A stretch of DNA of 64,000 nucleotides from the NCBI GenBank assembly GCA_016290215.1, contig JAEETH010000010.1, forward strand, positions 1 through 64,000, written 5' to 3'. This DNA comes from Bacteroidales bacterium (lineage in GTDB: Bacteria; Bacteroidota; Bacteroidia; Bacteroidales; F082). Below are positions 5,164-44,240 of the stretch, one piece after another. Position 1 is the first letter of the stretch. Every line of letters starts with the position of its first letter. Made by a program: the position numbers and the translations under genes. Under the pieces are notes generated by a model. It made no database searches, was not told where the DNA came from, and saw only the letters and a program-made list of their open reading frames with translations.

Positions 5164-5173
5164 AAAATAGTCG

Positions 5174-5181
5174 TATCTTTG
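5174..5181 (+). promoter_or_regulatory. Bacteroidetes -7 promoter box for the DUF4143 ATPase
   Basis: TATCTTTG matches TAnnTTTG and is 27 bp upstream of the ATG at 5209. The in-frame TTG at 5179 is part of this box, so it cannot be the translation start. Confidence 0.7.
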
Positions 5182-5208
5182 CGGCATAAAACACGAATTG
5201 TTGTCACC

Positions 5209-16723: not shown

Positions 16724-16981
16724 TCATTTTTGTTTCTTACGTTTCGATAACAGATAAGCGCCCGCCAACCCTGACAGCAGTAGCCATCCACTGCCAATAG
16801 GCGTATAAAACTGGTCATAATCTATTCCTTCTACGGGAGCAAAAAGAACAAATTCATCTGTCTCTTGACGAAGCATTCCTTCAAATTCATTGTCCGCAAT
16901 GAAGATTTGAGCTTTCAGAGAGCCAACACACAGCAGAAGAGCCGTGAGCAAAACCATGATATTTTTGTTCATTCTTTTCAT
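16724..16981 (-). CDS. Small secreted protein with C-terminal membrane anchor, last gene of the giant-protein operon
   Basis: An 85-residue protein: N-terminal signal peptide (MKRMNKNIMVLLTALLLCVGSLKAQ), a short polar middle (about residues 26-57), then YTPIGSGWLLLSGLAGAYLL and a basic KRKKQK end. The Pro-x-Gly-x-Gly, hydrophobic segment, basic tail order resembles the C-terminal anchors seen on many Bacteroidales surface-associated proteins. It starts 12 bp after the stop of the 4,796-residue gene, so it is very likely co-transcribed. A second ATG four codons in is equally possible as start. The function is unknown; it might help export or anchor the giant proteins, but that is inference from position only. 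Confidence 0.6.
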   Translation of the reverse strand: MKRMNKNIMVLLTALLLCVGSLKAQIFIADNEFEGMLRQETDEFVLFAPVEGIDYDQFYTPIGSGWLLLSGLAGAYLLSKRKKQK

Positions 16982-16993
16982 CTCTTTCTCTCC

Positions 16994-19900
16994 TTATCTG
17001 TTAACGATTACTTTTTGAACTTTAGTTTCTTTTCCGTTGGTGAGGCGGAACAAATACATACCGCTGGCCACTTCGGGTACGGTTATCCTCGTTTGGCCGC
17101 CATGGACTTCTTTCTCCCATAGCACCTGGCCATTCAAGTCGATGAACTCCAACTCGCCATCGCCTGTGACTAACCATTGTGAGCCGTCGAAGAAGACGAA
17201 GCTGTTAAGCTCAACGTGCTCTTCCACATCGGTCACGTTAAAGACTATGAGGAAGCGCGACGGATAGTCACCCTTATGGCCCTCGAAGGTATAGGAGTTA
17301 TTCCTAAGCATGTCGTACTGCACACCGGTTAGGTTGTCGATGAGGTACATACTATGGAAGTCGCCGTTGGCCGTATTCCACTTGATGTTGAAGATGTCGT
17401 CTTCCTTGGCTTCGAACCAAAGCGGCACTCGGTCGATGCCTTGCTGGGCGAAGAGTACGGCATAGTGCGTGTCGTCATGCTGGGCATAGAAGACACCATC
17501 GCCCACGCGCAGTTCTTTCATCTTGCGGGCACCGCCCCAGTTGGGACGCTCGAACTCGATGACTGTTACGTCGGCACAGCCTTGGTCACTGCTCAAGTAG
17601 AGATTGACCAATGGATAGGCTGGACGATCCTCACGCAAGTGGCTTTCCTCTCCATGTTTGGCAACCGAAGCACGAGTGGACAACATGGTTCCTTTAAACC
17701 GTAGAGGTTTAGTATCCTTCGCTTTCACATAGAAGGCTTGGTGAGGATGCAGATAACGCTCGGCATAATCACCGCCCCTAGAGCCATGCACAGGATAGTA
17801 CCTGAATGCAGTAGCGGCATCTTCGCCATCATATTTGTCAGCATTATAGACTACATAGAACGCGCGTTCATCCGCGTAATCACTCAAGTAATTCTGATCG
17901 CTCAACACCTCCAAGTTTGTGCCCTTAGCCAACTCATCAAAGTCTAAGTAACCATGATATGGATTACCCACCAAGTTCCAGCCAGGCATCATAGAGCCTG
18001 AGGTGTTCTTCAGCGTGATGCTTTGGCCATCATTGTCGACAGTATTCAGCTTGCCGTGGCTTTGCATGAAAGTTTCTTTCGTGATGGCCGCCATATAACC
18101 CTTTCCTGAAATCAAAGTCTCTTCGTTGACATTGGTTGGGGTCTGATCGTGGTTGGTCGCCTTCTCTGTGACATAATCCAACTTTACATGTGGCGTATCA
18201 CTGTGCCAGTGGTTAGGACCGTTACGCTTGAAGTTGATCCAGTGGTATTGCGGCTCATTCCATGTGTAGAAGTCCATGCCGTAAGGATAACGGTAAACGC
18301 CCGAGGAGGGACACTCATCAGAAGGTGTATTAGGGCTGTTCACGATGAAGAGATCGTCAGTTTGGGGAATGACAGACTCGTCTAACCCTGTCGGGAAATA
18401 TCCGTCAGCCACGTCATAATCCTTCATCCAGTAACGGTTGTTGCCATTAGGTTGTCCTCCGTTAAGCCAGTTGAACTCGTTGGCGGTGGACTCCCATGGG
18501 TTGTTGTAGTGCGGGCTATTAGCCACGTTATCACCCTTATAGTCAAATCCCAAAGGTGCGTTGCTCAACGGTGTAGAGAACATGTGCCAGTCGCGGGGCA
18601 AGAGGTAGCCACCAGTGCCAATGAGGCCTTCATTGATACCAGGCGAAGAGGAAGCATGTCCGCAGGAATTGTCGAAGGTGATACCCACATAGTTGTTGGC
18701 AAAGTCACTCAACTTGCCTGGATTGAGGATAGACACATCCTCGTGATAGCTCACTTTGCTTTGGGTAATGGAAAGGCTACTGCCCACGTTTTTCACGTCG
18801 CCATAAACAAAGAGGTAATCAGGAATGTCTTGGTCGTGTTCATCCTTCTCCAATGTTCTGGCAAGTGCGCTGTCAAGTTCGTTGTCATCACGTACAGGAC
18901 CACCATACTGCAAGGCACGACCTCCTTCATAAGTACCCACGCTACGGAAGTTACCTTGATAGATTGAGTCTGCATCAAACTCACAAAGCAGCAGCACAGG
19001 CAAGTCGCCGTTGATTTCGGCCAAGCCCGGACGCGCCCAGTGGGCGTAGGTGGAATCGGAAGCAGGATTCATGCTCCAAGCATTAATGTTGAGTCGGGCC
19101 ACCAACGTCGTGTCACCGTCGATGATGTTGTCGTAATACATGTAGCCAAGATTGTCGGGGCTGGTAGTATACGTGTAGTTATCGCTATGCTCACCACAGT
19201 TGTCGAAGGAGTAACCCTGCTCGACATAGCAGTAATCAATATCGTTGGTACCAACGAATTGGTTAATGATGCCCTTGAAGACAGAAGTACTTGTAGGCTC
19301 ATTACGCATGTGCGAATAACAGTTCTTCATCTCCATGCCATTAGCTCTGCCCAACAATCCACCAGCCAAAACACTATGGTTAGACGAGTTGATGTTGAAC
19401 GTCGCATTGACAAACGAGTTTTCGATAGAACTATTGTTAGAGGCGTTACCTACCAAACCTCCCATGGGGCCTGTGGAAGAGGCACCAATGCCCATCACAG
19501 GCATCGCCATCGACGAGTGGACCACGCCTGCCTCTACCTTTGCGACCAAGCCACCTCCGATAATGCCGCTTCCATTCTTGTCGGGGCAAATAATCTCAAC
19601 AGCGGCTTCGCTATTGGTGACATCGCCCTGTTCTTGATAACCAACCAATCCTCCGACGTTGAACGTGTTAACAGCATCAATTGAGGGGTTGAATGGGACG
19701 GTATTCTCAACCGTGGGAATCACGGGGCTAACCTTGCCACTTACCACGAACGTACGGTTGACATTGGCTTTATAGGTATTACCAAACAGTCCGTAGTCAT
19801 GACGTTCATAGATGGAGTCGCCCACGCCAATGTATTCGATGTAAAGGTTCTTGATAAGATGACCTTTACCATCATAATTTCCAGCAAACTGCTTGTGGTT

Positions 19901-22900
19901 GCCTTCAGCAGGGCTACCTATCGGTACCCAAACATATTGCTTCAGATTAATATCATCTGTCTGCTTGATAAACTTTGGGTGTTGTGAACTTGATGAGAAA
20001 TCAGTGGAAGAATACCCTACTCCATTCATACCCGAGGTCATGCTGATGAGCCAGGCCAAGCCCTTTTCATCCTTGATATTGAAGGTTGTGGTTGATCCTT
20101 CATTCACCTCTTCAATACTATTTTCGCCAGGGTTGGCACGCACCACATTGGCCCAAGTCCAGCCGAAGAACAAGGTGTTCTCATTCAAGTTGGGATTAGT
20201 CGGATTGGGGGTAATAATGGTCTCCGTTCCATCAATTGAAGTAGTCGCTCTTCCATCATAATAGGTAGTACGTTTGTGGTTTACAACACTCTCGTTGATA
20301 TAGAGCTTTTCGACATTCTCGTTGACGAAGAACCAACCTTGGTCGTCGTTGAAGTTGCAATTCTGCCATGCTTGGGAGGCTATTGCTTTAGCTTCCATCG
20401 TAGCAGTGGCAGCGGGAACGGCCTCCGCCACCGGCGAGAAGGTGTTGTCGTAATACCATTCAGCGGTGTTTCTGATCGGGCTGGTTACACCGATGTGGGT
20501 TTCCTTTTCCAACTCGTCTGTGATATTGAAGTGCTTGGAGAAGGTAGGCAGATACACATTACAATTGACAGGATGGTCATTCGAACCAACTACATGGCGT
20601 TGCTTATTGCTGGTAATGGTCACCAAACCTTCCACATTCACAGTGCAGGAGGCATCCTTGTCGACAAACAAACCACCACCTTGTGGAGTAACGGTGATTA
20701 CCTGCTGGCCACCTGACGTTGACTCTGTATAACAATCGTAGTCAACATTGTTGTACCATGTAGTAGCCACATCAATGCCATTGTAGCCACGCTGCAAGAT
20801 GGTGCCATTGGCCAAGATTGCTTCAGTACCTGTCTCGATGTTCTTACTGCCCTTAAGAGTGAGTGTACTATTGGCAGTAGTGACTACCATAGGCTTGTTC
20901 ACTTTATACACCTGCGTACTCATAAAGGAGGTTGGGATGCTATGAGTTGTAACATCCGTTGTGGTGGCTCCATACAAACCGTCCACCAACACATTCTCCA
21001 TCACGAAGTTGCTCTTGTTGGCATGGATCATCATGCCCAAGTTGGCGCCTGGACCTACAGTAGAGTTTCCTGTTTGTCCATTCCATGTATCTACATTATC
21101 AGGTGCTGTTGCAGGATGCTCCGCATCAACGACTGTCTCGTCATAATAGTCATTGCTCATCAAGTGTCCACCTGGGTAGCGGTACAACTTCAATTGATAA
21201 TCTGGCCATCTGTTCAAGTTGTCATTTTCGAGAACTGCTTCGATGGGGCCCACAACATAGATGATGTCATTGGCTTTGTCAAATGCAGGATACTTGGCTT
21301 CAGGAGTTGTAGATTCGTCATAGCAGATACCTTGTTCTAAAATGGTATTCCCTTCTACTGTTATGGTTTTATTGCCAGATACGGTCAGTTTGGGCTTATC
21401 AGGGAAATGGCCCCATCCCTCTTGGTGGTTTCTGTCCTTACCCCAACCGCCGTTGCCGTTGCCGATGCCTCTTCCGTCGACATACCAGATTCTGCCTGAA
21501 ATGACTGGCAACACCCATTCACGGAACTCCTCAAGGTCCATCTCACCATCTGCTCTATTCTGCACATACTCGCCGATGTTGAAATAAGGATATTGTTTCG
21601 TTTTGGTGAATTCACTTCCACCATCGTCGCCCTCATAATGGTAAGTATAATTCAAAACCTCATGATTCGCTTGGGTAAAGAAGTTGTAGTCCGTAACATA
21701 ACTCAGGAAACCGCCATCGCTTCCGTTCAAGATGTCACTCGTAAAATTATAACCATCTACGGCGATAGGATTGTTTTTCGGTGTCACCTTCGGGCGGGCG
21801 TAGGCAAAGCTCTCTGTACCATAAGGTTGGAATAAATCACCTCTCATCCTGAAGAAACCTTGCAGCTGGCCGTACTTCCTTATCTTGGTAGAGCCGCTTC
21901 CATCCAGATAGCGCACGTAAAGCCTTGAGTCGCCATTGAAGATAATGACGTTTTCTTGGTTATAAATCAAAGGCGAGTTAGGATTCGTTTGCGTATAATA
22001 CAACCTTGCGTTTTCTTGGGTGTTGCCTTCCTCTACCAATGGATTGACACCTATCCACTCCCAATCATTAGCGTTGCTGCCGTCCAAGTGGCCGTATGAG
22101 GTGCTGTTGGCATTGATCAGATGCAGGCTTCTCACTTCATGGATGGAGTCCATGTAAGCAGGAGCGCCGACAGCACCAAGCACGATGCCAGAGGCATTGG
22201 TCACATACACGCCCTTATCGACCTGAAGCACGGCAAACTTCCTTTCGGAATCGGATTGGCTGATGTCGTCAGCACCGCTCAGGTTGACGTTGGTATTGTC
22301 AAGCATGATAATGTCACCACGCTGCAGGGTGGTCAGTGTTCGGGAAGCCTGTGTCAACTCAGCATCTGAGTTGCCCTCAGGATTGCGCGTGCCGTAATTC
22401 CTGACTAAGATGTTACGGCCTTCCTCACCCGACTCGCAGTTGGTGCCACAGCCATATATGCCACCTTCGATGTTCATATAGTTGGTAGTGCTCTGGGCTG
22501 GAGCTGAGATTGTGGTGTTGTAGCCGGTGCCGTCGATGTAGACTCTACTGTAGCCCGACACGTTAAACGAGTGGTCCCATTCCGTTGAACCTATGCTTCC
22601 ATAAGAGCCGCCAAACACGCTGCCCTTGATGTCGAGGTTGGCAACGGCAGGAGTCTCCTGCCTGTGGATATTTTTGCCATAGAACTCATCCCCTGAGTCA
22701 TTTGACGTTTCGACGATGGCCTTCTGGCCTATCAAGACCGCCACGGAGCCTTTCACTTTGCCGCCGTAGCCGGCGCCATACACATTGCCTTTTTCAATGC
22801 CTCCTTTGGCGTCGGTGCCGATGGTGCCGCCACTAATGTTGACGAACGAGGCCCAACCCTTCGAATCGTGTGGGTCTGACGGGTTATCGTCTTCGGCATA

Positions 22901-25900
22901 ATAACTGCAGCCGTACACATTGCCTTCGACGGTGCCACCCCACATGTTGACCCAACGCGGAGCCTTGTTGGGGCGCGAAGCAGGAATCTGTCGGCTGCCG
23001 CCGAACAAACTACCATGTATCAAGCCACCCGACATGTTGACCACTTTGTAATCGTGTACCACACTCTGGCTACCACCGCCATACACATTGTTCCAGACGA
23101 CGGGTGAGTATTCGGTCCCGTCGACAGTCGATTTCCTGATGTTAACGATGGTATAGCCATATACCTCACCAGCCGTCTCGCTTTCGACAGTGGTGAGCAG
23201 ACCGCGACCGCCACCGTACACATTGCCGTCAAGAGTATTGTAATAAGTGGAAGTGGGATTGGCATCGTCAGCATCACCGATGATGCCGCCTTCAATGTCG
23301 ACAAGGGCATTCTTTCTCACATGGCCGTCCTCGCCGCCACCAAACGCCGAGCCGTAAATCTGGGCCGTCTGGCCAATGGTCACATGGGTGTTTTTGACGA
23401 AGGCCAAATCGACATACTCGCCACCCACGCCGCCGTGGCCTGAGCCGAACACGTTGCCGAAGTTCTCGTCTTCGTGAATCGTACCAACAGTACCGCCCAC
23501 GATAGTCACCGAAGCCAAGCCTGTTTTGTAGTTGCCCTGTGCATCGGGTTCCTCAGTGGCATTGCCCACCGAGGCCAGGTTGCCGCCGCCATACACATTA
23601 CGGATGACATGGCCGCCATCCATATTGACATGGGTGTTGCCTTGCACCAAGCCCGCCGTATGGCTATGGATTTGTTCACCTTCATGTTCGTATGTGTCGA
23701 CACCGCGACCACCGCCATACACATTGCCGTGGTAGGGGTCGTTGCAGGGTTCGAGATTACCATAATCATGGCCACCGATTTGTCCGCCATGGATGTTGAC
23801 GTAGGTGTCTTTCAACACATGTCCGTCTTCGCCCGAGCCGAACACCGAGCCTTCAATCCAGGTTTCGGTGCCTGATTTTTCCATGATGTTCACCGTGGTT
23901 TGCTTCACCTTCGACAAGCGTGTCGCCATGGTGCCAGGCGCATCTGCCTTACCTTTGGCGCCGCCATACACGTTGCCGCCCACGCGCTCGTCGGGGTGAG
24001 ACGGGTCGGTAATCAAGTGACCGATGTCGATGTTGCCGATTTGGTATTGTCCACCCACATTGACAGTGGCATAGCCGTGGTTGACGCCAACCAGCGTGTC
24101 GCCATTGACGTCGATACCGACCGAGCCGAGACGACCGCCGCCGAAGACGGAGCCGAGCATGTGGCCGCCCAAAATATTGACGGTGGTATTGCCACCCACG
24201 CGGCCAGCGGTTTCACTTTCTTCGTGGTAGTTACGGCCTCCGCCAAAGATGTTGCCGTCGAAGCCGGTGATGCCATTGGTACCCAAAGTGCCTTTCTTCA
24301 TCGTCACCGTGGCATCGCCCAACACGTGGCCTTGGCTGCCGCCACCGAACAGGCTACCCCAGACGCGGTCATCACCATCCATCGGCATATCCATCTCAAC
24401 GACGGCTGTGTTCACATTACAATAGGGACTCATGTGAGCATTGCTACCGCCCTTAGGACCACCGAAGACATAGCCGTTGAGGCCGGTACCGTCCAAAGGC
24501 CCGATAATGCCGCCGGTCACCTTCACCGTAGCCGTGCCAGTGTTGGCATCGGGAGTGACGCTGTTGGCACCCTCAGACAAATCGGAAGTATTTTCATAAA
24601 CGATATTAAACTGGCCCACGCTGGCCACTTCGCCACCGCCGAAAACATTCTCAAAGACATGGCCACCCTTGATATTAACATAGGTGTCACCATACACGCG
24701 ACCTGCTATTAAGATGGTCGGCTCGTGAAGCGCGTTGTCGGTATTCAATGATTCCGCCGTATCTGCGCCTTCATAGCCTCTACCTCCGCCAAACACATGG
24801 CCGCAGTTCTCAGCGACGTTATTGTTGGTGTAGACGCCGCCGATGGTGCAGTTGCCAGCGATGTTGACCGTGGTGCTGTCACGAACACTGCCGACTTCGC
24901 CACCGCCATACACTGAGTTCTTGATGGCTGCCGTGCCTTTGATGGTCACATTGGTCTGCTTGACGCGTGCCGCCAAAGGCCAGATGCTTTCAGATGCTGT
25001 ACTAATGACACCTCTACCACCGCCATAAACGTTGCCGCTCATGGTATAAGGATTGACGTGGCTGGGATGCGTTGAGCCGTTGCCAACGACGGTGCCGCCA
25101 CTGACATTCACGACCACGTGGCCGTAGGTCTGGGCGTTCTCGCCTGTCACATCGTCCCTCATTTGGCCATAATATGGATTGTCGGTCATGACACCATTGT
25201 TGTCATATTGGGCATCCACAAGGTAGGTGCCCACCGAGGCACGGTTGCCACCGCCAAAGACGGAGTTGAGGATGGTGCCACCGGTGATATTCAGGTTGAC
25301 ATTGCCACTCACCGAACCTGCGGTAAGGGCTTCCTCCGTGGTGCCACGACCGGCGCCAAACACGTTGCCGTCGGCCTTGGTGAGGCCTTGGGTCCCAATG
25401 ATGGTGGGAACATCGCTGGATGCCTGACTGACCTTGAGGTTGACGTCGCCCATGACGTGGGCGTCCTCGCCACCGCCAAAGACACAGCCGTAAATACGGC
25501 CACCGCTGACGGTGACATCGGTTTCCCAAACATTGGTCCAGGTGTTGAAGTAGATGCGCGGGTCGCCCTTGCCCGAGCCATAGAGATAGCCAGGGACAGG
25601 AAGGTTTTGAATATCTGTTGTGGTGCGCGGCACGCCGATGGTGCCGCCACTCATAACGACAGTAGCCTTACCGCCTGAATTATGGTCTTCGCCATGAATC
25701 GTATAATTATAGGTGTACCTACCCACATTGGTGACCTCGCAGCCGCCATAGAGGCAAGAAAGGATGTGGCCGCCGCTGACTTCCACGCGGGTGTTGCCCC
25801 ACACATGTCCCGCCGAACGCAGCCATTGGCTTTGGCCGTTGACTGAGCCGTAGGGATAGTAGCCTGAGCCGCCGCCAAACACATTGCCAAAGAAGGTGCC

Positions 25901-31384: not shown

Positions 31385-31434
31385 TTTTTTATTTAGGCTA
31401 TTATATTTCACTTTTGAACTCTGCTTATATCATT

Positions 31435-34400
31435 TTAATCGTCATCCGATGGATCTGTCGATGGCACAATGATGATTTTCGTATCACCAATGATTTTGCC
31501 TTCCTTGCCACCGCCATAGACATTGCCCAAAATGGTGACCGGACTATCATTGGGATGAAGTTTGTCGCCAAGAATCACTAAGGGGTTGCTGGTAACGTCG
31601 CCTTTATTGCCACCACCATACACATTGCCTTCGTAGTGTTTCGGGCGAGGATTTTCTGCGCTTTCAATAACAGGAAGGTTCTGGCTGTCTCCACCTACAG
31701 TGGCCTTGAGAACCTTGATAAGAGGAGAGTAGCCAGGATAATCGGTGCTATTGTAATTACTGATATTGCGTGGCGTATAGTCTGTTCGGTTGCCACCGCC
31801 ATAGATGTTTCCGATAAAAGGAGGACAATCTGATTCCTCATCGAATTGCACTGTAATCGTAATCCTACCTTCCACATTGCCGTTGATGTCGCAAGCACCA
31901 TAGAGGTCTCCAATCGTACCTCCACGAATGAGCAGGTTGATGTTGCCGCCACGTCCCAAATCCGACTGAGTCAATTCAGGATGAGCGTCAATCATCTCCT
32001 GGGTGATTATATAAATGTTGGAAGCATAAGTCTCGTCAGGGCTGGTTGCAGGATTGTCGATACTGCCTTTTGAGCCTCCAAACACATTTTCAAATATACC
32101 GCCTTCGATGGTGAGGTTGATGTCGCCATAGATTTGCGCCTTGTTGCTACCGCAATACAAGTTGACGAATCTCATCAATCTATTGGGATCGGTTTCACAA
32201 ATAATGGTTTCAGTAATATCGTGGAAAATATCCACTTGATTGGAGCCCATATAGTGGTCAATGACCAACGCATTACCGCAGCCATCGAAGTTTGACAAAG
32301 AGATATTACCATTGATAGTACCATGCAGATTACTTCCGTTGAAGAGCGAATTCATATAGCCACCGCCAATGAGGATAGTGATGCCCCCTTCACCGATATT
32401 AGCTCCAAATTCCGGGCCAAGTTCGCCGTTACCGCCACCGAAAACCTGATCTAATCGACCGCCGTCGATAGTGAGATTCACGCCATACACTGCGGCTGCG
32501 TTTCCGCCGCCGAAGAGTCGCCAAATCGTGTTTTCGCAGCCGTGGACATTCACGATGTTTTTCAATCCGCTATCACCCGATGTGATAGTGTAGTCAGCTT
32601 GGTTGCCTCCACCGAAAACTTGGTGGATGGCATAACTGCCATCGGTGTTATCCACTACATTGTCTTCGTTATGAGCAGTTTGGTAAACATCCACATACAC
32701 ATTGCTCTTGGGCGAGCCATTCAAATTGTTGCAGCCATACACATCACAGTTGATGAGGTTGGCTTTGCCTGTATACGTGTCCGAATCATTCGAATCAGTC
32801 GCATAGCCGACATTGACGTAGACTTTGCCATAAACAAAAGCTTCTATACTTGTAGTAGCGCCGTTAACTCCGGCCTTTTGTCCCAAGCCGCCGCCGTAGG
32901 CAGCACCATTGATGATGCCGTTACGCAGGTTGACCGTGGTGGTAGTGGTAGCACCGGGGGTGTTTTGATCGGCAGTGTTCACGTTGCCCAAAGCCGAACC
33001 ACCGTAGAGTTCGCCATATAGAACCAGGCCCGTATTCTCTACGTTGGTATTATCGCCGAAGTTGACGATGACGTTGCCCGTGACCGTGGTTTCGTGACCG
33101 TAGCCGCCACCGTGGATGTTGGCGGTATTAGTGCTGCTGACACCTATTGTACCACCAATGAGTTGGACGAGAACGTCGCCACCCAGGTTGCCACTTTGGT
33201 CGCAGCCGCCGTAAACGCCTTTACCCAAGCCCGTAACGGCATCGCCATCGGTGCCGATGGTGCCGCCATAGACATAGACCTCAGTGTTGTTCGTGATACT
33301 AGCTTGCTTGCCGCCGCCCACCACCTTGTGGACCACAGTGCCATTGTTGACGTTGATTTCGGTGCTGCCATCCACAGGTGCCAACTCGCCGCCACCATAA
33401 ACATTACCTGACACGAGAGCAACGAATTCTTCTGAGCTCAAGTCCTCAGGAAGATCATCAGGAAGATAGCCCGACATAGCATCAACATAACCAAAGTTGA
33501 CTATCGGGTTGGATGTAACCGTTGCCGAGGCACCGTAGGCACCGCCAAACACATTGCCTCTAATGCCTTCTTCTTGGGCAATGTGCATCACATTGACAAC
33601 AGGTCCGTCAGTGGTAGAAGTTGGAGTATAAGGCGTCAGTTTGCCACCTCCATATACATTCGTCAGGTCGAGGCCACAGCTTACTTCATAGTCAATCACG
33701 TTAACGGTGATGCTTCCCGTAATGCTACCGTTTTGGTCACTACCGCCGAAAGCGTTTGTTATGGTTCCGCCTTCCAAATTGAGGGTGACGTTACCATCAA
33801 TATTGGCAGCTGTCTCATTTAACACACCCTTCGATCCACCAAAGACATTGTTAATCGTACCACCTCTCACATCGAATTGGACATTGCCTTGAATCTCGGC
33901 CATATTGGAACCACCGTATGCATTGTCGATCACGGCGCCACATTTAATAATTGAATAGACATTGTCGGAAATAAGATGCGCCTCATTGCTACCACCGAAG
34001 AAATCAGTGATGTGCATATCCATTTCCTCATTACACTGCGAATCGCCATTGACTTCGGTGTACATCGGACCTGCAATGTTACCTTCTTTGTTGCTACCGC
34101 CAAAGAGGTGGATTATTTCACCACCCGAGACAACCAAGTGGGTGCCACCATTGCCGATGTTGGCCGCGGTGACTTCACCGTTACCGCCACCGAAGACATA
34201 ATCCATTCGGCCGCCTTCAATAATCGTGGCCACCCCCGTGGCGTCTGCAGCATTACCGCCAGAGAACACCCTGCGGATGGTATTCAAACAATTGTGAACA
34301 TATACCAAGATAGAAGATTCATCTGCATCCGATGGTATGTAGTCGGCTTGGTTGCCACCGCCAAAGACCTGGTTGATGGCATAATATGGATTCTCGCCAG

Positions 34401-37400
34401 TCGCGGCACTGTAATCGTACTCGTCATCCGGGAAATTAAAGGCTGTCTTCCACACATGCACCTTCACGTCGTCCTGCGGTGAGCCGTTGGTGTTGTTGCA
34501 GCCATAGATATTACCATCCCTAAGGTCGATGAAACAGTTGGCTGGAAGCTGGTCTTCGTTGCTGATGTTGACGAACACCTTGCCGAAGACCTTGGCAGCA
34601 ATGGGGTCATTGCCTTGTCGGCCCAAAGCGCCGCCAAAAAGGTTACCATGGAGGGTGCCATTGAGGAAGCTGACAGTCGTGGAATTGTCGCCGTTCGTAT
34701 TGACACTGCCCAAGGCAGAGCCGCCATACACATTTCCGTAGATGATCGGAAGTCCAGTCCAAGAAGTGGCAGTGGCTGGACCAACATTGACGATGACATT
34801 ACCCGTAGTGCGAGTGGGCACACCGTATCCACCGCCAAACACTTCGGAGATGTGAGAGGCGTCGGCACCCACTTGGCCGCCTAAAATATCGACACGCGAA
34901 ACACGGCTTGTGGGCGGGTTGTTGGTGACCTCCGTGGCCACCGTCACCGACGGGTCCTCTATGGAATAAACCGTTCCATTGTCATAGAAATAGTTGCCGT
35001 TGCCGCCAGCATAGATGTTGCCGTTCACTTGGCCTCCAATGACGACGACAAGCGAGGTGTCGAGCACCGCGCCGCTGATGTCGCAGCCGCCGAATAGGTT
35101 GGCAGGAACATCCGCGCCACCTTCCACGAGTACCAAACTGTTGTGGTATACATCGTTCATGCGGCAACCTCCGTAAACGGCATTACTCACCACGGCATCA
35201 GGAATGACAACAGGAGCATTAGGAGTTGCTTGGTAGGAGCTGCGCAAGCGCACCATACTACCCACATTGCGGTAGGTGTTGCCACCAATGGTGAAATCCT
35301 TTCCTGTAGTCATAGCGCCTCTGTTGCAACCGCCATAAACGGTACCCACTTGGCCATGTAGTAAGATGATGTCAGGTACCAAGGGCACATTTTGTGTTTC
35401 CACAACATTATCCTTATTGTTGCCGCCAAAAATAGTGCCCACTTGGTCATAAGGAAGAGGATTATTAACATTGAGGAATACCGTGATAGAACCGGTCACC
35501 GTCACACCATTGCCACCACCATACACTGTATTAATATGGCCGCCTTGGTCTGCAGGGGAACCGTTAATGTTGATGTCGACGAAAGTGTTGGTCTGGATAG
35601 GTTTGTCATTGAACTGTCCTTGGTCATCGTATGAACAGTAGTGACCCGCAGGAATGACATCATCACCGTTTACATAGTCGTAGTCGCCGTTGCCGCCGCC
35701 ATACACCGTGTTGATGTCGGGCGTACCTGTGAGGCTGACGTATGTGTTTACCTCCGACAAAGAGGTGTAACCGTCAGAGGCAATATCATAACCCGCAGGA
35801 AAAACACGGTTGGAGATTTGACCTACCTGTCCCGAACGATCGTTGCCGCCATAAAGGGCACCGTCGAACTCATCCGTCATGCCGATGGAGCCACCCGAAA
35901 CGATTACCTCGTTGCCACCCAAGATGGAGGCCATATTACCACCGCCAAACACATTGCCCACTACTTCTCCGCCATCCATGCGCAACGATGCCAAGCCCAC
36001 AAATTGAGGGAACGACCTGTCGCCCACTGTGGCATCCGTAAAGCCAACTGGTGACATGTTACCACCAGCATAGACATTACCCTTGACCATTGCGTTTTCT
36101 GTAACAATCACATGGGTCTCGTTGTGGGTGGGAATGGCCCAACCAACATAGTTCTCAGGAGGACAATAGTTGATGCCTTCAATATAACTGATACCATCAT
36201 TGCAGTGGTAGAAACCATTACTGCCTCCGAAAAGATTGTTATAGACAACACCTCCAGATGCCTTGACATAGGTGCCTCCTTGAACAGCCTGATATGCTTC
36301 CGAAGGTGGATTGCTGGACACATTCGGGTTAACGCGTGTGCTACCCACATCACCGCTGATATTGCAACCGCCATAGACGGTGCCTACATGGCCATCCATG
36401 ATTTCCGTCCATGTGCTGTAGTCCACATTGCTCTTCTGACAGCCACCGTAAAGTAAGTCTATCAGGATATTAGGGCTGTTCATCTGAACGTGAGTACCGT
36501 ATTTGACATTCATACTTACGGGAGCATTGCCGTAAGTGTTCGGAGCGAGTATCGTAGTCTCTTCTTGAGCCAGCATATCGCCCTCGTTGCCACCGCCATA
36601 CACGGTGCCAATGCCTCCCGAGGTAAGGATAAGGTTCGGAACGCCTTCCATGGAAGCCCTATTGTTGCCGCCAAAGAGCGTACGTACATTGTAGATGCCA
36701 GAACGGTCCCAATGGTAATCACCATCGATGGCATTGTCTGTCAGGTCACCGCCTGAATAGTCTCCGATGGCATTCGTATAGACTTTACCATAGGCACCGT
36801 TGGCGAGCACAGCCAGTTGACAGTTGACAAGCACTTGGGTGGAGCGCACATCGTATTCGTTACCACCACCGAAGATGGTGTCAATCTGGCCGCCTTCCAC
36901 TGTGATGTAAATATTCTGGCCTTGCACCTTGTTGCCACCACCGAAGAGGTAGCCGATGCCGAAGTCACGGCCAAGTACACCATTATGATAGTTGTTACCC
37001 GTTTCTGTGGTCGTATTGGTGACCGTGATGCGTTCCTGGGATTGGTAGCCTAACGATCCGCCATAGTTGTTGCCACCGAAGATGGTGAAGATGGTGCCAC
37101 CATTAATGTTGATGGTCACATCATCGCTCGTTGCATTCAGGATGGCGTTTTTGGCGCCACCAAAGACGGAATCGATCTTAACGTAATCGTTGGTCACCGT
37201 AATCTTGGACTTTTTGATGGTAGGTGAAACAAAAGTCACATTCGAGCCGGTAGCGTTGGTCCAAACCGTGTCGCCCAACTGCTGATTGATTGTCATTTCC
37301 ACTATGCTGGCATTGTTCTCAATGGTGTACTCTGTATCGTATGAAGCAGGCTCAAAAGAGGTGCCGTTGTAGGCATAGTAGCCGTTGCCGCCGCCGTAGA

Positions 37401-38985
37401 TGTCGCCAATCCTTATAGGTGCATTGGTGGTACCATAATCGTCGAAGTCATTGGGGTCATCGGCTTCAACACCTATTGTGATGGTCGACCCTTCAGCGCC
37501 TAATACAGTTCTGGCAATGTCATTGCCGCCATACACGGCATGGATGCTGTCGCAGTTGATGATGGCCACCGCGGTATTGCCGCCTACATCGCCCATACGG
37601 CCACCTCCAAACACAGCGCCGTAAACCAACAAACCAGGTTGCTCTTTGGTATGGAAAGAATAAACTGACGCTGGGTTTTGGTCAGGGTCAGAACAAACGG
37701 CTTCCACCTTGTACTCATAATCTGTATCATAATCCAAGTTAGCGAGGAAATATGAGGTCACCTCCCCTACACCAACCGCGTTCCAAGCCGATTCGTTTTG
37801 CTTTTTCCAAAAGACAATATAACTCTCAGCCGTGGGAAGCCACGACACCGTGACGCCTTCGTAAGCGACCACTGGAGCGGCAGCCTGCCCAGGGTTATGG
37901 CACTGGGTTTTCAACGTGACCACAGCCGAGCGCGTCTGCATAGAACCGTTGGTATATGTAACGGTAAGCGAAATGAGAGCGGTTTGATGACTCGAAGGGT
38001 ATCCATTGTTAAAGGAAAGCGTCGGAGAAGACGCTGTAGTCGAACTTAAAGTAAGATACTGCGCACCTTGGCCAGAAATTTCCCAAGAATAAGAAGCGAT
38101 GCTGTTTTCGGTTATCGCTTCAGAACCAGGGATACCAGATTGTTCCGAACCGCCATAGAAATAATGCGGGGTGCCTTCAAAAAGATAAACGGTATAGGCT
38201 TGTCTATAGTCGTAAGAATATGGAAGGTCTTCGTCTACTTCAAGCGTTTGACTCGAACCATAATCCATTTCATCATTATCCAAAACGAGGTCGCCCAAGC
38301 CGCCTGATTCATTGCTGATTTCTTCGTCATACTCGGTAATCGTTACTGCACGGTACATTGCGCCATTGGTCGGAATATGATAACTGGATGCGGATGACAG
38401 TTGCCATGTACCATTATATTCCACCCAATACACTTCCCAACATTGCTGATCCACAGGGTCCCAGCTGTGGCCTTCACCGCAATCCCCTTCATTAGTAACA
38501 CCTTGGTAACGGTGACCGCGAGCCACGCCCGCGCCATATTGGTCTGGATCCCAGTCATAGAAATAGTAAATCTGGTCCGTGTTTCTCAGCAATTGGATGG
38601 ACGGCAATGTCGCTGAAAGCGAAAGTTGGCCATTGGGCTGTAACGGAGCCGCCAGAAAACGATAGTTGCCATTTCCGTCAATGAAATAGTAGTTATGGTG
38701 GAGACCATAAACGTTGGCGGTGTTGCCCGAATACCACAAGCATGTGGCAGGGTCGAACGTGGTGGCATCCTGCAACACCCAGTCTTGAGCGGTTTCATCA
38801 TATACATGTGCCAAATAATGGTCGCCTTTTTTGATGACATGCAGCGGGTCGTTCTGTGCCGCAACGCTTCCAACAAAAGCAAAAAGCAACAGGCCGCAAA
38901 CTGCTAACTTGCGTACTACTTTCTCCATATTTTTGCTTTTTCTCTTCATTTTCAGATGATGATGTATATTCAGTAGTTTTTTCAT
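31435..38985 (-). CDS. Giant secreted (Y/F)GGG-repeat protein with Ig/fibronectin-like N-terminus
   Basis: 2,516 residues. Possible starts are 38985, 38949 and 38928; the last gives the most compact signal peptide (MEKVVRKLAVCGLLLFAFVG..., cleavage near SVAAQ). Residues ~290-365 look like a PKD/Ig-like beta domain. Residues ~365-450 resemble a fibronectin type III domain (VTVSWLPTAESYIVFWKK ... YEYKVEAV). From ~455 to the end there are over fifty (V/I/L)(Y/F)GG(G/S/C/N) modules. It finishes in GNVYGGGKEGKIIGDTKIII plus a short acidic tail, with no T9SS sorting domain. The ending is very similar to that of the preceding gene. It lies 29 bp downstream of one giant gene and 23-50 bp upstream of the other. 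How it is retained at the surface is unclear. Confidence 0.87.
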   Translation of the reverse strand: MKKLLNIHHHLKMKRKSKNMEKVVRKLAVCGLLLFAFVGSVAAQNDPLHVIKKGDHYLAHVYDETAQDWVLQDATTFDPATCLWYSGNTANVYGLHHNYYFIDGNGNYRFLAAPLQPNGQLSLSATLPSIQLLRNTDQIYYFYDWDPDQYGAGVARGHRYQGVTNEGDCGEGHSWDPVDQQCWEVYWVEYNGTWQLSSASSYHIPTNGAMYRAVTITEYDEEISNESGGLGDLVLDNDEMDYGSSQTLEVDEDLPYSYDYRQAYTVYLFEGTPHYFYGGSEQSGIPGSEAITENSIASYSWEISGQGAQYLTLSSTTASSPTLSFNNGYPSSHQTALISLTVTYTNGSMQTRSAVVTLKTQCHNPGQAAAPVVAYEGVTVSWLPTAESYIVFWKKQNESAWNAVGVGEVTSYFLANLDYDTDYEYKVEAVCSDPDQNPASVYSFHTKEQPGLLVYGAVFGGGRMGDVGGNTAVAIINCDSIHAVYGGNDIARTVLGAEGSTITIGVEADDPNDFDDYGTTNAPIRIGDIYGGGNGYYAYNGTSFEPASYDTEYTIENNASIVEMTINQQLGDTVWTNATGSNVTFVSPTIKKSKITVTNDYVKIDSVFGGAKNAILNATSDDVTININGGTIFTIFGGNNYGGSLGYQSQERITVTNTTTETGNNYHNGVLGRDFGIGYLFGGGNKVQGQNIYITVEGGQIDTIFGGGNEYDVRSTQVLVNCQLAVLANGAYGKVYTNAIGDYSGGDLTDNAIDGDYHWDRSGIYNVRTLFGGNNRASMEGVPNLILTSGGIGTVYGGGNEGDMLAQEETTILAPNTYGNAPVSMNVKYGTHVQMNSPNILIDLLYGGCQKSNVDYSTWTEIMDGHVGTVYGGCNISGDVGSTRVNPNVSSNPPSEAYQAVQGGTYVKASGGVVYNNLFGGSNGFYHCNDGISYIEGINYCPPENYVGWAIPTHNETHVIVTENAMVKGNVYAGGNMSPVGFTDATVGDRSFPQFVGLASLRMDGGEVVGNVFGGGNMASILGGNEVIVSGGSIGMTDEFDGALYGGNDRSGQVGQISNRVFPAGYDIASDGYTSLSEVNTYVSLTGTPDINTVYGGGNGDYDYVNGDDVIPAGHYCSYDDQGQFNDKPIQTNTFVDININGSPADQGGHINTVYGGGNGVTVTGSITVFLNVNNPLPYDQVGTIFGGNNKDNVVETQNVPLVPDIILLHGQVGTVYGGCNRGAMTTGKDFTIGGNTYRNVGSMVRLRSSYQATPNAPVVIPDAVVSNAVYGGCRMNDVYHNSLVLVEGGADVPANLFGGCDISGAVLDTSLVVVIGGQVNGNIYAGGNGNYFYDNGTVYSIEDPSVTVATEVTNNPPTSRVSRVDILGGQVGADASHISEVFGGGYGVPTRTTGNVIVNVGPATATSWTGLPIIYGNVYGGSALGSVNTNGDNSTTVSFLNGTLHGNLFGGALGRQGNDPIAAKVFGKVFVNISNEDQLPANCFIDLRDGNIYGCNNTNGSPQDDVKVHVWKTAFNFPDDEYDYSAATGENPYYAINQVFGGGNQADYIPSDADESSILVYVHNCLNTIRRVFSGGNAADATGVATIIEGGRMDYVFGGGNGEVTAANIGNGGTHLVVSGGEIIHLFGGSNKEGNIAGPMYTEVNGDSQCNEEMDMHITDFFGGSNEAHLISDNVYSIIKCGAVIDNAYGGSNMAEIQGNVQFDVRGGTINNVFGGSKGVLNETAANIDGNVTLNLEGGTITNAFGGSDQNGSITGSITVNVIDYEVSCGLDLTNVYGGGKLTPYTPTSTTDGPVVNVMHIAQEEGIRGNVFGGAYGASATVTSNPIVNFGYVDAMSGYLPDDLPEDLSSEEFVALVSGNVYGGGELAPVDGSTEINVNNGTVVHKVVGGGKQASITNNTEVYVYGGTIGTDGDAVTGLGKGVYGGCDQSGNLGGDVLVQLIGGTIGVSSTNTANIHGGGYGHETTVTGNVIVNFGDNTNVENTGLVLYGELYGGSALGNVNTADQNTPGATTTTTVNLRNGIINGAAYGGGLGQKAGVNGATTSIEAFVYGKVYVNVGYATDSNDSDTYTGKANLINCDVYGCNNLNGSPKSNVYVDVYQTAHNEDNVVDNTDGSYAIHQVFGGGNQADYTITSGDSGLKNIVNVHGCENTIWRLFGGGNAAAVYGVNLTIDGGRLDQVFGGGNGELGPEFGANIGEGGITILIGGGYMNSLFNGSNLHGTINGNISLSNFDGCGNALVIDHYMGSNQVDIFHDITETIICETDPNRLMRFVNLYCGSNKAQIYGDINLTIEGGIFENVFGGSKGSIDNPATSPDETYASNIYIITQEMIDAHPELTQSDLGRGGNINLLIRGGTIGDLYGACDINGNVEGRITITVQFDEESDCPPFIGNIYGGGNRTDYTPRNISNYNSTDYPGYSPLIKVLKATVGGDSQNLPVIESAENPRPKHYEGNVYGGGNKGDVTSNPLVILGDKLHPNDSPVTILGNVYGGGKEGKIIGDTKIIIVPSTDPSDDD

Positions 38986-39014
38986 TGTCGTTTCCTCTTA
39001 TATTCAACTCATTC

Positions 39015-42000
39015 TCAAGGTTGTGGTGTAGTGCCGTTGATGATCACTTTTGTGTCGCCGCCGATCTTGCCTATATTGCCTCCGCCATAGATGTTGCCGA
39101 GCACCTTGGTCTGGTCTTTGACTAAAACTGTTGTGTTTTGAAGCACTTCACTCTCGTCGCCACCGCCAAACACGTTGCCTGTGCCATTGACACCCGGGGT
39201 ACCCACCGTGGTTGAACCTTCTAAGGTAAGAGAGACGCTATTTTCGACTGCGCCAAGACCTTCGAGCGGAACTGTAGTGAGCACATACCATTTATTGCTT
39301 CCCACAGGATACTCAAAAGTGGCATTTCTACCCGTATTTGTACCAGCTGGGATTACCACCCCTTGAGGGAACATCTGACCAGAAGCATTCTTATAGCACC
39401 AAGTGTATTCACGGTCGATGTATTCTAACGAATTCAATCTATTCATGCCATCCTGCATAAGACCGCCTCCATCAATATAAGGGAAATGCGGTTGATTCTT
39501 GTCATGAATTCGGAATGGCTCAATTTTACCTGAAAAGCCTCCGCCGTAAACATTGCCCTTTACGATGCAATCTGTTAGTTTGGAAGTAACATTACCTTTG
39601 ACATTGGCGAGGTTGCCACCACCATAAAAGTTGTTTTTAACTGTACAGTTGACCAATGTGTTGGAGACATCGCCCGTAATGGTGGTGCCAAACTGTGCCC
39701 AATGGAGGTAGGAACGAATCGTAGGATTCTCACCCAAACCATTGGACTCGACAAAACACTCGAACTCGAAAAGGGCATGGTATCCTCTGTTTAATGTAGT
39801 ATTTGGCCCTTCATAGGCTGTGCCTGCACCACTGATGGTATTAAGAGGGTTAAAAACATTATATCCATGAGAATTCCAGTATGTCAAAGTGGAAGGATTG
39901 GTAAAAGCAATATTACCATCTTCCTTTTGTTCGCGGTAGTAGCTGGTGCCTCCATTGCCGCCGCCATAATAATGTCCAAAAATAGTGCCTGTGGCATGGG
40001 TAGTAACAGTCATCTCATCGCCCATGACACCAATTTTAGGGCCTCCACAATATTTTTCCACTAGACTGTGGTCAATGGTGACATCAATGCTGCCAGATAT
40101 TGGCTTGGAACCATTGATACCACCGCCATAAAACTCACCTATGATGGAATGGTCGATCTTGAACGTGATACTGCCATCAACCTTTTCATAGCCCGCACCC
40201 GCTATCATGCCAAAATGGCCTCCATTGATGTAGCAATGAGGATTGTCCTGGTTGGCCCCTGCGTTAACATTATAGATACCAGAAAGATAGAATTCAGGAT
40301 AATCTCCACCAAGCACATTGACAGCACAATGCCTTGTTATTTTGCCATTACTGTCACGATTGCAGTGTCGGCCTGGCGTGAAACGCAACATACGGAAATG
40401 GCCTCCCAAAAGGAAATAAGAAGTATGGTCGTTGTCGCCATAACGCACAACGATTTGTTCGAAGTGACCTCCATTAAGAATCACCGGACCTTCCACTTTA
40501 TAATTAGAGTTATTGGTATTGTAATTATCATATTCAAACTGGGTTGTATGCATATAGGAAGTCTCGGTAATCTCAAAATGACCTTGAGGGGTAAAAATAC
40601 CGATGGTGTTTTGGTTTTCATTATGACGAACTGCCATACCCAACTCTGGCACGGTGAGGAAATCGAAACGAATGGGTTGGATGCATGGACGAGCAAATTG
40701 CCTACGGAATTGCAATTCAAAACAATAGTCTGGCTCATTGTCGAAGTCTTGGTCGATGCTCATTATCGTATAGGGATGCCATTTGTTGTCAACACCATAT
40801 CCTACACCGCCATTTTCATTCCTTAACTGGAAATTGCCAATGAGAACGATGGCTTGGTCATATACCGTGAAACTCAACGTGTTATTCGAGAGCGTGGCCG
40901 CATCAAGGGCTTTGATGGCAACACGCCAATCGGTATAGACTGTATGGCCCTGAAATGTAGTTGGCAATGTTCCTCCAGGCACAAAAGGCTCACCATATTT
41001 CACATCCCCATTGGGAGAATAGTTGGTCATTTTTACCCTATCAAGATAATGGCCTGTATTGTGCATATAGAACGCCTTGCCCCAATAGGCCTCAATGGTG
41101 ATGGCGGTCACGCCTTCGGGCACGTAGTAATAACCACCTTGGGCAAACACGCGACCACTCTTTGCATAAAGGTCTTTGTTGGTACAATTGCGGTCGGCAA
41201 AATTGAAACCATCTTCCCATGCGCGTTCTGAGACTTCATCGGGGGTATAGCTGCCATACGCAGACGAATAAGCATAGCCTTTGAAGGTGCCTGGTGTTCC
41301 GCCAGTTACCTCGGTTATCTTCCAGCCCGTCACCACATAGTCCGTATAATTACCGCCATAACGCGTGTTGTGGTCGCTGCTGGATGGGTTACCGAAAAGT
41401 TCGTTATAGTATGGAAGCTGCACTTTGCAATAGCCGTAGTCAAAATGCAGGGTATCCATGTCAGTGATGGTTCGCGTGATCGTAGTACCAGCGATGCCAG
41501 CAGGAGCATGATTGCCCGGGTTGACCGTGATGCTCAGTGTGCCCAAGCTCTTACCTTGATAAGGGGCAGCGTCGGTGCGTTGCACCCAAACACCTGCTTT
41601 ATCGTCCCATACCTTATCCGGGTCAGGGTTGATGACGGAAGGATACTTACCCCACTTCTTCAAAATGGGATAGGGAGCAATGCTGGGGTCAAGCACCCAC
41701 TTGGCAAGATCCAATTCCGTGACTTGTTCGTCGGTCGGTGTCGTTCCATTGATTCCGTTCACCCACCAAGTGCAGAGACGGCGATTGCTGTTGAAGATGC
41801 TACGATAGTATTCAAATCGGGTCAAATACTCCTCCAAAACAGGCCAAGAGGTTTTATGGCCAGCAATGGTCAAACCATTATCAAATGTGGCACTTTCGCG
41901 GAAAAAATCGTAAGGATTGATGCCCGTGTTCGAATCGTTTAGGATGACCTTGTTGCCATAGACAGGTGCGTAGTTTGCGCAATTGCCCGTATCAATGTCG

Positions 42001-42707
42001 CCATAAAACATGCAATTGACTACCATGGTCTTTATGTTAGCCTGGACCGAAGTCTGATTGTTGTTGCCCACCAATCCACCCACATAATAGTTACCGCCAC
42101 CGCCTTGGGTAATCCAAGCATAACTGAAGCAGTTGATGACGCGGGCAGTTCCGTCAAGCAAACCGACGAGGCTACCGCAATTGCGGTTGTTGCTACTCGC
42201 CACAGTGGACGGATTGTCAAAAATGTTGATGGGATTTGTGGGCAGAATGCCACAACTGTAGATGCGAGAATCGCCATTGGCAGTGCAGCAGATGGCTCCG
42301 ACATCGCCATCTTGACTGATAGCTACCTCTTTGAGCATGATATTACTGATGTGAGCTCCTGTAACAGTTATGAACAAAGGCCGAGTCAGTCCAGAAATGA
42401 CAGGGAAAGTGCCGTCAGCCTTTGCTTGAGCCGTCAGTGTGCCCGAAAAGGCAGCATTGAGCGAAGGGATGTAACTTGCCGCATCAATGTCTGTTGTAAT
42501 AACATAATTACCCGTGGCAGTCATCCCATTCAGTCCTGTCACATCAGTAATTGTTGTGGGTGTTTGTCCGAAAACATTTTCACACATGAAAACCGCAAAA
42601 ACAGCCATTATAAGCAAGTTCATCACCCACCTGCTTTGCTTTCTGCCATAATTATCATTCGAAAAAGTCGGATTTTTGCCATCCAAAGTTCCAAAACTCT
42701 TATTCAT
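39015..42707 (-). CDS. Large secreted protein with GLUG-like and (Y/F)GGG repeats, first gene of the giant operon
   Basis: About 1,230 residues from the ATG at 42707. An upstream in-frame ATG at 42755 would add a second hydrophobic stretch before the real signal peptide (SRWVMNLLIMAVFAVFMCEN, cleavage near VFGQ). The first ~250 residues carry GLUG-like turns (CGSLVGLLDGTARVINCFSY, YVGGLVGNNN). The middle is unlike known domains to my eye. The last ~400 residues carry YGGG modules such as NFYGGGNLANVKGNV. It ends in GNIYGGGNIGKIGGDTKVII with no sorting domain. A TAnnTTTG box about 95 bp upstream would drive the whole ~26-kb operon. Confidence 0.83.
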   Translation of the reverse strand: MNKSFGTLDGKNPTFSNDNYGRKQSRWVMNLLIMAVFAVFMCENVFGQTPTTITDVTGLNGMTATGNYVITTDIDAASYIPSLNAAFSGTLTAQAKADGTFPVISGLTRPLFITVTGAHISNIMLKEVAISQDGDVGAICCTANGDSRIYSCGILPTNPINIFDNPSTVASSNNRNCGSLVGLLDGTARVINCFSYAWITQGGGGNYYVGGLVGNNNQTSVQANIKTMVVNCMFYGDIDTGNCANYAPVYGNKVILNDSNTGINPYDFFRESATFDNGLTIAGHKTSWPVLEEYLTRFEYYRSIFNSNRRLCTWWVNGINGTTPTDEQVTELDLAKWVLDPSIAPYPILKKWGKYPSVINPDPDKVWDDKAGVWVQRTDAAPYQGKSLGTLSITVNPGNHAPAGIAGTTITRTITDMDTLHFDYGYCKVQLPYYNELFGNPSSSDHNTRYGGNYTDYVVTGWKITEVTGGTPGTFKGYAYSSAYGSYTPDEVSERAWEDGFNFADRNCTNKDLYAKSGRVFAQGGYYYVPEGVTAITIEAYWGKAFYMHNTGHYLDRVKMTNYSPNGDVKYGEPFVPGGTLPTTFQGHTVYTDWRVAIKALDAATLSNNTLSFTVYDQAIVLIGNFQLRNENGGVGYGVDNKWHPYTIMSIDQDFDNEPDYCFELQFRRQFARPCIQPIRFDFLTVPELGMAVRHNENQNTIGIFTPQGHFEITETSYMHTTQFEYDNYNTNNSNYKVEGPVILNGGHFEQIVVRYGDNDHTSYFLLGGHFRMLRFTPGRHCNRDSNGKITRHCAVNVLGGDYPEFYLSGIYNVNAGANQDNPHCYINGGHFGMIAGAGYEKVDGSITFKIDHSIIGEFYGGGINGSKPISGSIDVTIDHSLVEKYCGGPKIGVMGDEMTVTTHATGTIFGHYYGGGNGGTSYYREQKEDGNIAFTNPSTLTYWNSHGYNVFNPLNTISGAGTAYEGPNTTLNRGYHALFEFECFVESNGLGENPTIRSYLHWAQFGTTITGDVSNTLVNCTVKNNFYGGGNLANVKGNVTSKLTDCIVKGNVYGGGFSGKIEPFRIHDKNQPHFPYIDGGGLMQDGMNRLNSLEYIDREYTWCYKNASGQMFPQGVVIPAGTNTGRNATFEYPVGSNKWYVLTTVPLEGLGAVENSVSLTLEGSTTVGTPGVNGTGNVFGGGDESEVLQNTTVLVKDQTKVLGNIYGGGNIGKIGGDTKVIINGTTPQP

Positions 42708-42801
42708 ACTATTCAAACAATATAATAATACAATAAACAAAAAAACCGTCATCATTACGATGACACTAATTGCATAGTGCGTGCACTTTACAAAAATTGT
42801 G

Positions 42802-42809
42802 CAAAGGTA
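42802..42809 (-). promoter_or_regulatory. Bacteroidetes -7 promoter box for the giant-protein operon
   Basis: TACCTTTG on the minus strand matches TAnnTTTG. The remainder of the gap up to 42984 is AT-rich, and I see no further gene in it. Confidence 0.6.
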
Positions 42810-43967: not shown

Positions 43968-44240
43968 TCAAAAAACATCTTCGTGAGTTCCGGTGTCGAA
44001 CAAGTATAGCATACAACGATTTCTTACGATACGATACACCAAAACCCAGTCAAATTGTATGTGACACTCCCTAAAAGCTTTATAGTTGCCAGAAAGCAGA
44101 TGATCCTTATGTTTAGGATCCAAAGTCTTACCATCAGCTAATTGGCGGACTACGTCATCAAGCAATGAAATGTCAAGGCCTCGCTTTTTGGCTAACTTAT
44201 ATGATTTCTTGTACCTGCTCGAAAACTCAATGCTCATCAT
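43968..44240 (-). CDS. yafQ: YafQ-type mRNA interferase toxin
   Basis: A 90-residue RelE/ParE-superfamily toxin of the YafQ type, predicted to cleave mRNA on the ribosome. The characteristic residues are present: His in KHKDHLLSGN, Arg-Glu-Cys-His followed by FDWVLVYRI (the YafQ Asp-Trp pair), and the C-terminal GTHEDVF with catalytic His and Phe. The antitoxin gene is 5 bp upstream in the same orientation. Two consecutive ATG codons open the gene; either may be used. Confidence 0.9.
   Translation of the reverse strand: MMSIEFSSRYKKSYKLAKKRGLDISLLDDVVRQLADGKTLDPKHKDHLLSGNYKAFRECHIQFDWVLVYRIVRNRCMLYLFDTGTHEDVF

Follow-up and report, generated by a model that had tools for sequence, protein, structure and literature searches.

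We analysed a window of 64,000 nucleotides from a Bacteroidales bacterium (assembly GCA_016290215.1, contig JAEETH010000010.1, positions 1 to 64,000), in which four minus-strand genes, here called A, B, C and D, lie between an AMP-binding ligase gene and an EamA transporter gene, both recognised by Pfam. A, B and C are giants that share a glycine-rich repeat, and only C, the last of the three, bears a sorting domain of the type IX secretion system (T9SS). Our preferred reading, to which we give a little less than even confidence, is that the operon makes one T9SS-exported surface fibre, a parallel beta-helix of several chains stacked end to end. The evidence comes from the anatomy of the genes, one predicted fold, natural fusions of A with C at the same locus in relatives, the conserved ends of the chains and the linkage of D to one kind of sorting domain.

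Gene anatomy and export signals

The first-pass annotation of this DNA, made from the letters alone, had described three consecutive minus-strand giants with spacers of tens of bases, a signal peptide on each, about 8,500 residues in all and a small gene 12 bp after the third. That layout stands (Table 1): the gaps are 29 (A-B), 23 (B-C) and 12 bases (C-D), A, B and C sum to 8567 residues, the small gene D encodes 85 aa, and a signal peptide was seen on each giant, as called by eye only. Behind the signal peptide of A, residues 89-165 score 40.6 bits, over a cut-off of 27.7, with PF05342, which covers the N-terminal part of M26 peptidases; a conserved non-repeat region (~230-870) and repeats (871-1246) follow. 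The M26 catalytic domain was not found in A, nor was any other Pfam match at E<=1. B has an N-terminal domain of its own (~44-280), a weak PKD/fn3-like part below cut-off (~281-455) and then repeats to its end. C goes from its signal peptide directly into repeats (~37-2985), followed by a region that we call C_mid (2986-3800), a GLUG region (3801-4130; PF07581 at 26.5 bits against a cut-off of 20.5, best stretch 3916-3940) and a tail module (4131-4805), the borders in C being our own division. An alternative ATG lies 27 bases past the GTG start of C. A possible upstream open reading frame (ORF) of six sense codons (minus strand, 42755-42775) has a stop that shares a base with the first ATG of A, and the true start of A is uncertain.

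The sorting domain of C scores 30.6 bits with TIGR04183, over the cut-off of 23, and 24.3 bits with PF18962, below the cut-off of 27. No sorting domain was found in A or B with Pfam, NCBIfam or a model of the C-terminal domain (CTD) built from 34 sorting domains of the same genome, and no NCBIfam match at E<=1 to a type B CTD in A, B or C. According to PMC12618676, T9SS substrates bear a CTD by which the system recognises them, and in PMC10994853 a signal-peptide fusion without CTD is the negative control. SprA is encoded in the window's own genome (TIGR04189, 1934.5 and 586.1 bits) and in all 11 further genomes tested, a set to which G430 and G431 (see below) do not belong. This assembly, of 3.8 Mb and 85% complete, holds at least 150 T9SS type A sorting domains; the genomes compared below are metagenome-assembled (MAGs). 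Two-partner secretion (TPS) of the HxuA/FHA type was rejected, since A, B and C have no Pfam match to a TPS domain at E<=1.

Table 1. Positions in the window of the operon genes, of parts of their products and of neighbouring features
Feature	Position	Strand	Details
Gene A	39015..42755	minus	P0001, 1246 aa
Terminal coil of A	39018..39095	minus	NIYGGGNIGKIGGDTKVIING and a short polar tail; uncapped C-terminal edge
Gene B	31435..38985	minus	P0002, 2516 aa
Gene C	16994..31411	minus	P0003, 4805 aa, GTG start
Modelled stretch of C, predicted parallel beta-helix	23219..24349	minus	Residues 2355-2731 (377 residues); AlphaFold2 and VIA-align
T9SS type A sorting domain of C	17000..17164	minus	Residues 4750-4804; TIGR04183
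Gene D	16724..16981	minus	P0004, 85 aa
Possible Bacteroidota-type -7 box upstream of A	42802..42809	minus	TACCTTTG
AMP-binding ligase	14809-16578		Pfam
EamA transporter	43022-43927		Pfam

Repeats and predicted fold

The motif [YF]GG occurs 56 times in C, 46 times in B and 7 times in A, against means of 8.9, 4.8 and 1.9 (maxima of 18, 14 and 6) in 300 shuffles of each protein. About 60 copies in the largest protein and more than 50 in the second had been counted at first pass; this fits a loose form of the motif (57 and 49) but not the strict [YF]GGG, of which C has 39, B 20 and A 6. Nor is A mainly a repeat protein, as had been claimed, its repeats beginning only at about residue 870. The repeats of A, B and C gave no match to a Pfam or NCBIfam model above cut-off, in keeping with the earlier view that they belong to no family that can be named, and a PDB sequence search with B, the only one of the three searched, returned one weak fn3 match (E 0.05).

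A 377-residue stretch of C was modelled by AlphaFold2 with a pLDDT of 86.3 and a pTM of 0.90. The predicted fold matches solved beta-helices by VIA-align, used as a second look at 149 chains ranked by Foldseek, and families outside that list may match as well. The stretch is thus predicted, with high confidence, to be a parallel beta-helix. A very long beta-solenoid had been suggested, with structure prediction as the check: a regular beta-helix was obtained in the one stretch modelled. The motif itself is looser than stated.

Split and fused forms in relatives

The 60 nearest genomes, the window's own included, were searched with the last 801 residues of C, the N-terminal region of B and the non-repeat region of A; neighbouring genes in relatives were recognised by sequence likeness, without Pfam. 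The C query matched in 44 genomes, many of them solely in the generic tail, and the B query in 16 at E<=1e-3, with strong full matches only in the window's genome, G022, G012, G024 and G018. The A query matched in nine genomes (own included), all of one genus.

Conservation of the gene order, proposed earlier as a check, was found in three relatives: A-B-C-D stand at the same EamA/AMP-ligase site in G024 and G018, and in G012 the same site is spread over two contigs, of which C9 ends with the first part of A and C86 opens with the last part of A, then B, C and D. In G029 and G031 this site holds a single A+C gene (3788 and 4013 aa) followed by D, without B; the G029 locus is the same contig as in MAG RUG13948. 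The fused chains run from the A region through the last repeats of C, C_mid and GLUG to the tail. A+C fusions were also found at other sites in G010 (4862 aa) and G034 (3319 aa), without an adjacent D.

At another site G022 has a repeat-only gene of 1070 aa, B and a 7395-aa ORF bearing the modules of C. This single ORF (contig C60, L028 and L029 joined, 10599-32786) has 102 [YF]GG, and some of its N-terminal residues are probably spurious. The same genome has a lone A on C61 and, on C59, a broken A with one internal stop (L071, ~3100-5761) beside the AMP-ligase, an apparent remnant of the operon at the usual site. The window's own genome has a paralogue of C (contig C79, L001, 3-9579; C-terminal 3089 aa) with fn3-like inserts, as judged by eye, and 16 bases downstream of it a D-like ORF of 96 aa.

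Split forms are scattered among fused ones on a tree built from C_mid and tail (10 rows; all seven inner branches well supported), so the change between the two states happened at least twice; a tail-only tree (six of seven inner branches supported) puts G029 elsewhere. The window's A groups with the fused G029 and G031 on a tree of A (91/93) and its C groups with G024 and G012, which implies that modules were exchanged. The A of G024 is very divergent.

The earlier notion of an undescribed surface system holds in that no family lies above cut-off, but the operon is no lone oddity: at least 1159 database proteins match the C repeats and at least 1043 the fused A-to-C region (E<=1e-3). Among the best 120 of the first set, the window's C included, 99 have C repeats, C_mid, GLUG and tail, 18 have the repeats only, two are without the tail, and one (P0141) is a B+C fusion that joins the N-terminal region of B to the modules of C. 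The best 120 of the second set comprise 23 A+C proteins with the tail, that of G029 included, and 97 A proteins without it. Database relatives among the matches listed reach 7,993 aa, near the length limit of the search.

A second family with A beside a solenoid giant

The A region of P0191 (Prevotella sp. tf2-5), used as a query, matched in four of 393 genomes of the order (own included) and in four of the 15 genomes of the family f111. At all four f111 loci (G246, G146, G430 and G431) a solenoid giant of 3823-3937 aa precedes A by 7-61 bases; it has 30 [YF]GG and a coil right after the signal peptide, and all four giants end in a GVYxV...K-like stretch. The giant of G146 is over the TIGR04183 cut-off, at 28.2 bits, and this genome has an additional repeat-only gene of 1194 aa without CTD. 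Another solenoid giant adjoins A in eight of the ten intact loci of CTD-less A that were read (own, G024, G012, G018 and the four of f111). At five of these eight (own, G024, G012, G018 and G146) either the adjoining giant or, where B intervenes, C carries a CTD that passes the cut-off or scores clearly with our own model.

Chain ends and junctions

The C-termini of the best 240 homologues were scanned with the CTD model from the 34 sorting domains: 123 have tail and CTD, 117 have neither and none is mixed. Most CTD-less proteins (92/117) end 14-40 aa past their final coil motif, whereas 27% of random cuts fall in that range, and a terminal-coil motif was found in 95 of the 117 and in none of the 123. 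Likewise, 95 of the 97 tail-less A proteins end within 70 aa of the coil motif. At the other end of the chain, the first [YF]GG falls within 70 aa in 92 of 98 tail-bearing proteins (M-starting, from the C-repeat homologue set). The window's A and B end on a coil and its C begins on one, which by sequence only makes these ends uncapped. Another ending, IKAVAxKxGYLPS in place of the terminal coil, is seen in CTD-less solenoids of 6,800-8,000 aa (P0071, P0076, P0108, P0110-P0112, P0117, P0119, P0121 and P0122).

The repeat region of A aligns through residue 357-376 of 376 in 24 fused proteins. At the coil after the junction the window's C start ranks 1-2 in 15 of the 24 and in the top five in 23 (median 29 coils), and the C start of G012 ranks 1-2 in 12. 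These alignments suggest that the A/C break falls on a coil boundary.

Protein D and the shortened sorting domains

D consists of a signal peptide, a short acidic segment, a PIGSG motif, one hydrophobic segment and a KRKK tail. There are 31 listed homologues, one of them possibly the window's own; P-x-G-x-G before the hydrophobic segment and a basic tail are present in 13 of 14 aligned rows, P0010 having PIAGG. A match to D was found in 35 of the 60 genomes, all of one genus, and in none of the 24 genomes outside that genus. It lies 3-296 bases downstream, on the same strand, for 41 of 45 tail matches of >=200 bits; the four without D are G010:C19, G034:C2, G029:C18, where ~340 bases of contig remain, and G020:C8, at a contig end.

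In the window's own genome, 16 of the 150 sorting domains listed have a TIGR04183 match that starts no earlier than profile position 10, a class that we call shortened. A D-like gene follows nine of 15 of these (in the window, on C79 and in seven others), the sixteenth having no room for one, and none of the 20 CTD genes from outside the class that were examined for comparison. D is also present after one further gene outside the class, on C16; including this gene, the linkage is 9/15 vs 1/21 (Fisher 4e-4), and without it the value is 7e-5. The D family follows other T9SS genes as well. Six shortened-class genes (L034, L035, L037-L040) have no D-like gene downstream. D is probably a membrane-anchored partner of this subclass of T9SS substrates, with an escort or anchoring role. 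By analogy, it may be a type A counterpart of the carrier gene that, according to PMC12618676, type B substrates often have directly downstream.

Proposed assembly and its rivals

We propose that C would cross the inner membrane by Sec and be secreted and anchored by the T9SS via its type A sorting domain, and that A and B would reach the periplasm via their own signal peptides, without a sorting domain. The last coil of A or B and the first coil of C, both uncapped, would dock end to end, because open-ended beta-helices can join in this way, as do curli subunits, whose uncapped solenoid ends stack head to tail (PMC10192328); the proposed order matches that of A then C in the fused chains. The CTD of C would serve the whole rod, and A and B, being docked on C, would be exported with it or held by it. 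The non-repeat domains of A and B, set along the rod, are likely its binding parts and may recognise glycans of plants or of the host. The fold neighbours, and the rumen, which we take to be the origin of the RUG MAGs, prompt no more than a guess that the target is a plant polysaccharide.

A wider claim would follow the same lines: the T9SS would export a multi-chain beta-solenoid, in which giants without a sorting domain would be carried across the outer membrane in trans, docked end to end on a single chain that has a CTD, the fibre would be lengthened or re-tipped by added genes without added export signals, and D with the shortened CTD would be a new dedicated class of T9SS accessory. This we regard as possible but doubtful.

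Several findings weigh against a stacked fibre of this kind. The f111 giants best match the repeats of B (BLAST E 1e-16) and only weakly those of C, and none of the four has a BLAST match to C_mid, GLUG or tail; they were rejected as C-type, having no match to C outside the repeats. The giants of G246, G430 and G431 have no NCBIfam match and score 10-15 bits by our CTD model. CTD-less A genes also occur as orphans, two in tandem in G375 and one in G022:C61, so a strict rule that such an A always stands beside a CTD-bearing neighbour is false. The terminal-coil motif is missing in 22 of the 117 CTD-less proteins, of which some look cut and one group ends in another domain, and in G024 and G012 the C-terminus of B is an additional domain, not an open coil. 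At the junction coil, the C starts of G018 and G022 each rank 1-2 in none of the 24 fused proteins and that of G024 in seven, and no C start ranks 1-4 there in fused G010; moreover, the 24 rows are related, not independent.

The alternative that survives best, although we think it rather unlikely, is that A, B and C are independent surface proteins with the same operon and repeat type and no assembly, A and B using an unrecognised secretion signal, perhaps the terminal coil. The stand-alone A genes of G375 and G022:C61 speak for it, and CTD-less proteins have a strongly conserved terminal coil, as expected of a sorting signal. However, A is fused with C at the same locus and B with C in one protein, A adjoins another solenoid giant in two families, and the matching coil is internal in the fused proteins. 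We consider it improbable that A and B stay periplasmic, for instance as scaffolds holding the solenoid of C before export: this would suit their signal peptides (by eye) and lack of a CTD, but in the fusions the A module belongs to the CTD-bearing chain. Slightly less credible still is that the solenoids are polysaccharide-degrading enzymes and not structural adhesins. That the three ORFs are a single gene broken by a sequencing or assembly error, as the one-chain form of A and C in other species might suggest, was rejected as next to impossible, since each ORF has its own signal peptide and G024, G012 and G018 show an identical division into three genes; in addition, none of the A+C fusions read contains a counterpart of B.

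Promoter region and neighbouring genes

The box upstream of A, of a type that we take to be the Bacteroidota -7 box, is weakly assigned. The first-pass annotation had a single TAnnTTTG box there, which is not the case: a second one, TATTTTTG, lies at 42827-42820, likewise upstream of A. The motif is not specific either: the window has 47 copies, where chance would give 33, and four of the 47 fall within the giant genes on the minus strand. The promoter evidence is weak because such boxes are common by chance. The longer TAnnTTTGCA has 8 copies vs 2.75 expected, and it also precedes the first gene in G024, G018, G029 and G031, all four relatives whose upstream DNA was read. A single A-B-C-D transcript would be plausible. 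Further upstream of the operon lie a YafQ-family toxin gene (PF15738) and a YoeB-like toxin ORF, called by eye, at 43968-44240 and 45962-46234, with an endonuclease/phosphatase-family gene between them.

Comparison with known systems

C is like the T9SS type A surface proteins (TIGR04183/PF18962) in its terminal domain and in the presence of SprA in the genome. It is unlike them in its size, its solenoid body, the CTD-less A and B encoded with it and its shortened CTD match, of a kind often followed by D. SprB with sprF is likewise a T9SS-exported adhesin with a dedicated gene directly downstream (PMC12618676 and PMC10994853), but the CTD of SprB is type B and that of C type A, and here there are several chains. 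Curli CsgA and other open-edged beta-solenoids share the uncapped ends, read for A, B and C from the sequence alone, whereas the structure proposed here is heteromeric, thousands of residues long and T9SS-linked, with stacking as a proposal only. The beta-helix proteins of two-partner secretion, such as HxuA, differ in having a TPS domain, in place of which the T9SS is found here, and the Lactobacillus reuteri SRRP adhesins, Cthe_2159 and tapirins are short single-chain solenoids of other phyla and secretion routes.

D, with 85 aa and one hydrophobic segment, is unlike the PorP/SprF-like proteins, given what is generally known of their nature, and resembles no known carrier. It is like the short anchored proteins of the LPXTG/PEP-CTERM type in motif, hydrophobic segment and basic tail, but falls below their curated cut-offs (TIGR01167, 14.1 vs 15.9; TIGR03370, 13 vs 25.35). 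Processing of D by a known exosortase was rejected, as PF09721 was not found in the 85%-complete assembly.

Among the titles and abstract openings searched on giant T9SS or Bacteroidales solenoids, CTD-less T9SS cargo and split solenoid adhesins, with few subscription papers included, none dealt with these proteins. The accessible parts of PMC10202324 and PMC9143113 held nothing on CTD-less T9SS cargo.

Significance

What this analysis adds to the first-pass annotation is the CTD on the last giant only, the union of A and C in one protein in other species and the occurrence of the D family after other T9SS genes. In this operon CTD-less chains of a thousand to several thousand residues are encoded beside a CTD-bearing one that shares their repeat, and a small gene family, that of D, is linked to one kind of T9SS sorting domain. 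Since natural fused versions exist beside CTD-less co-encoded chains, export in trans is directly testable. If the stacked fibre proves true, it would be the likely architecture for more than 1,000 mostly unnamed giant proteins in the databases.

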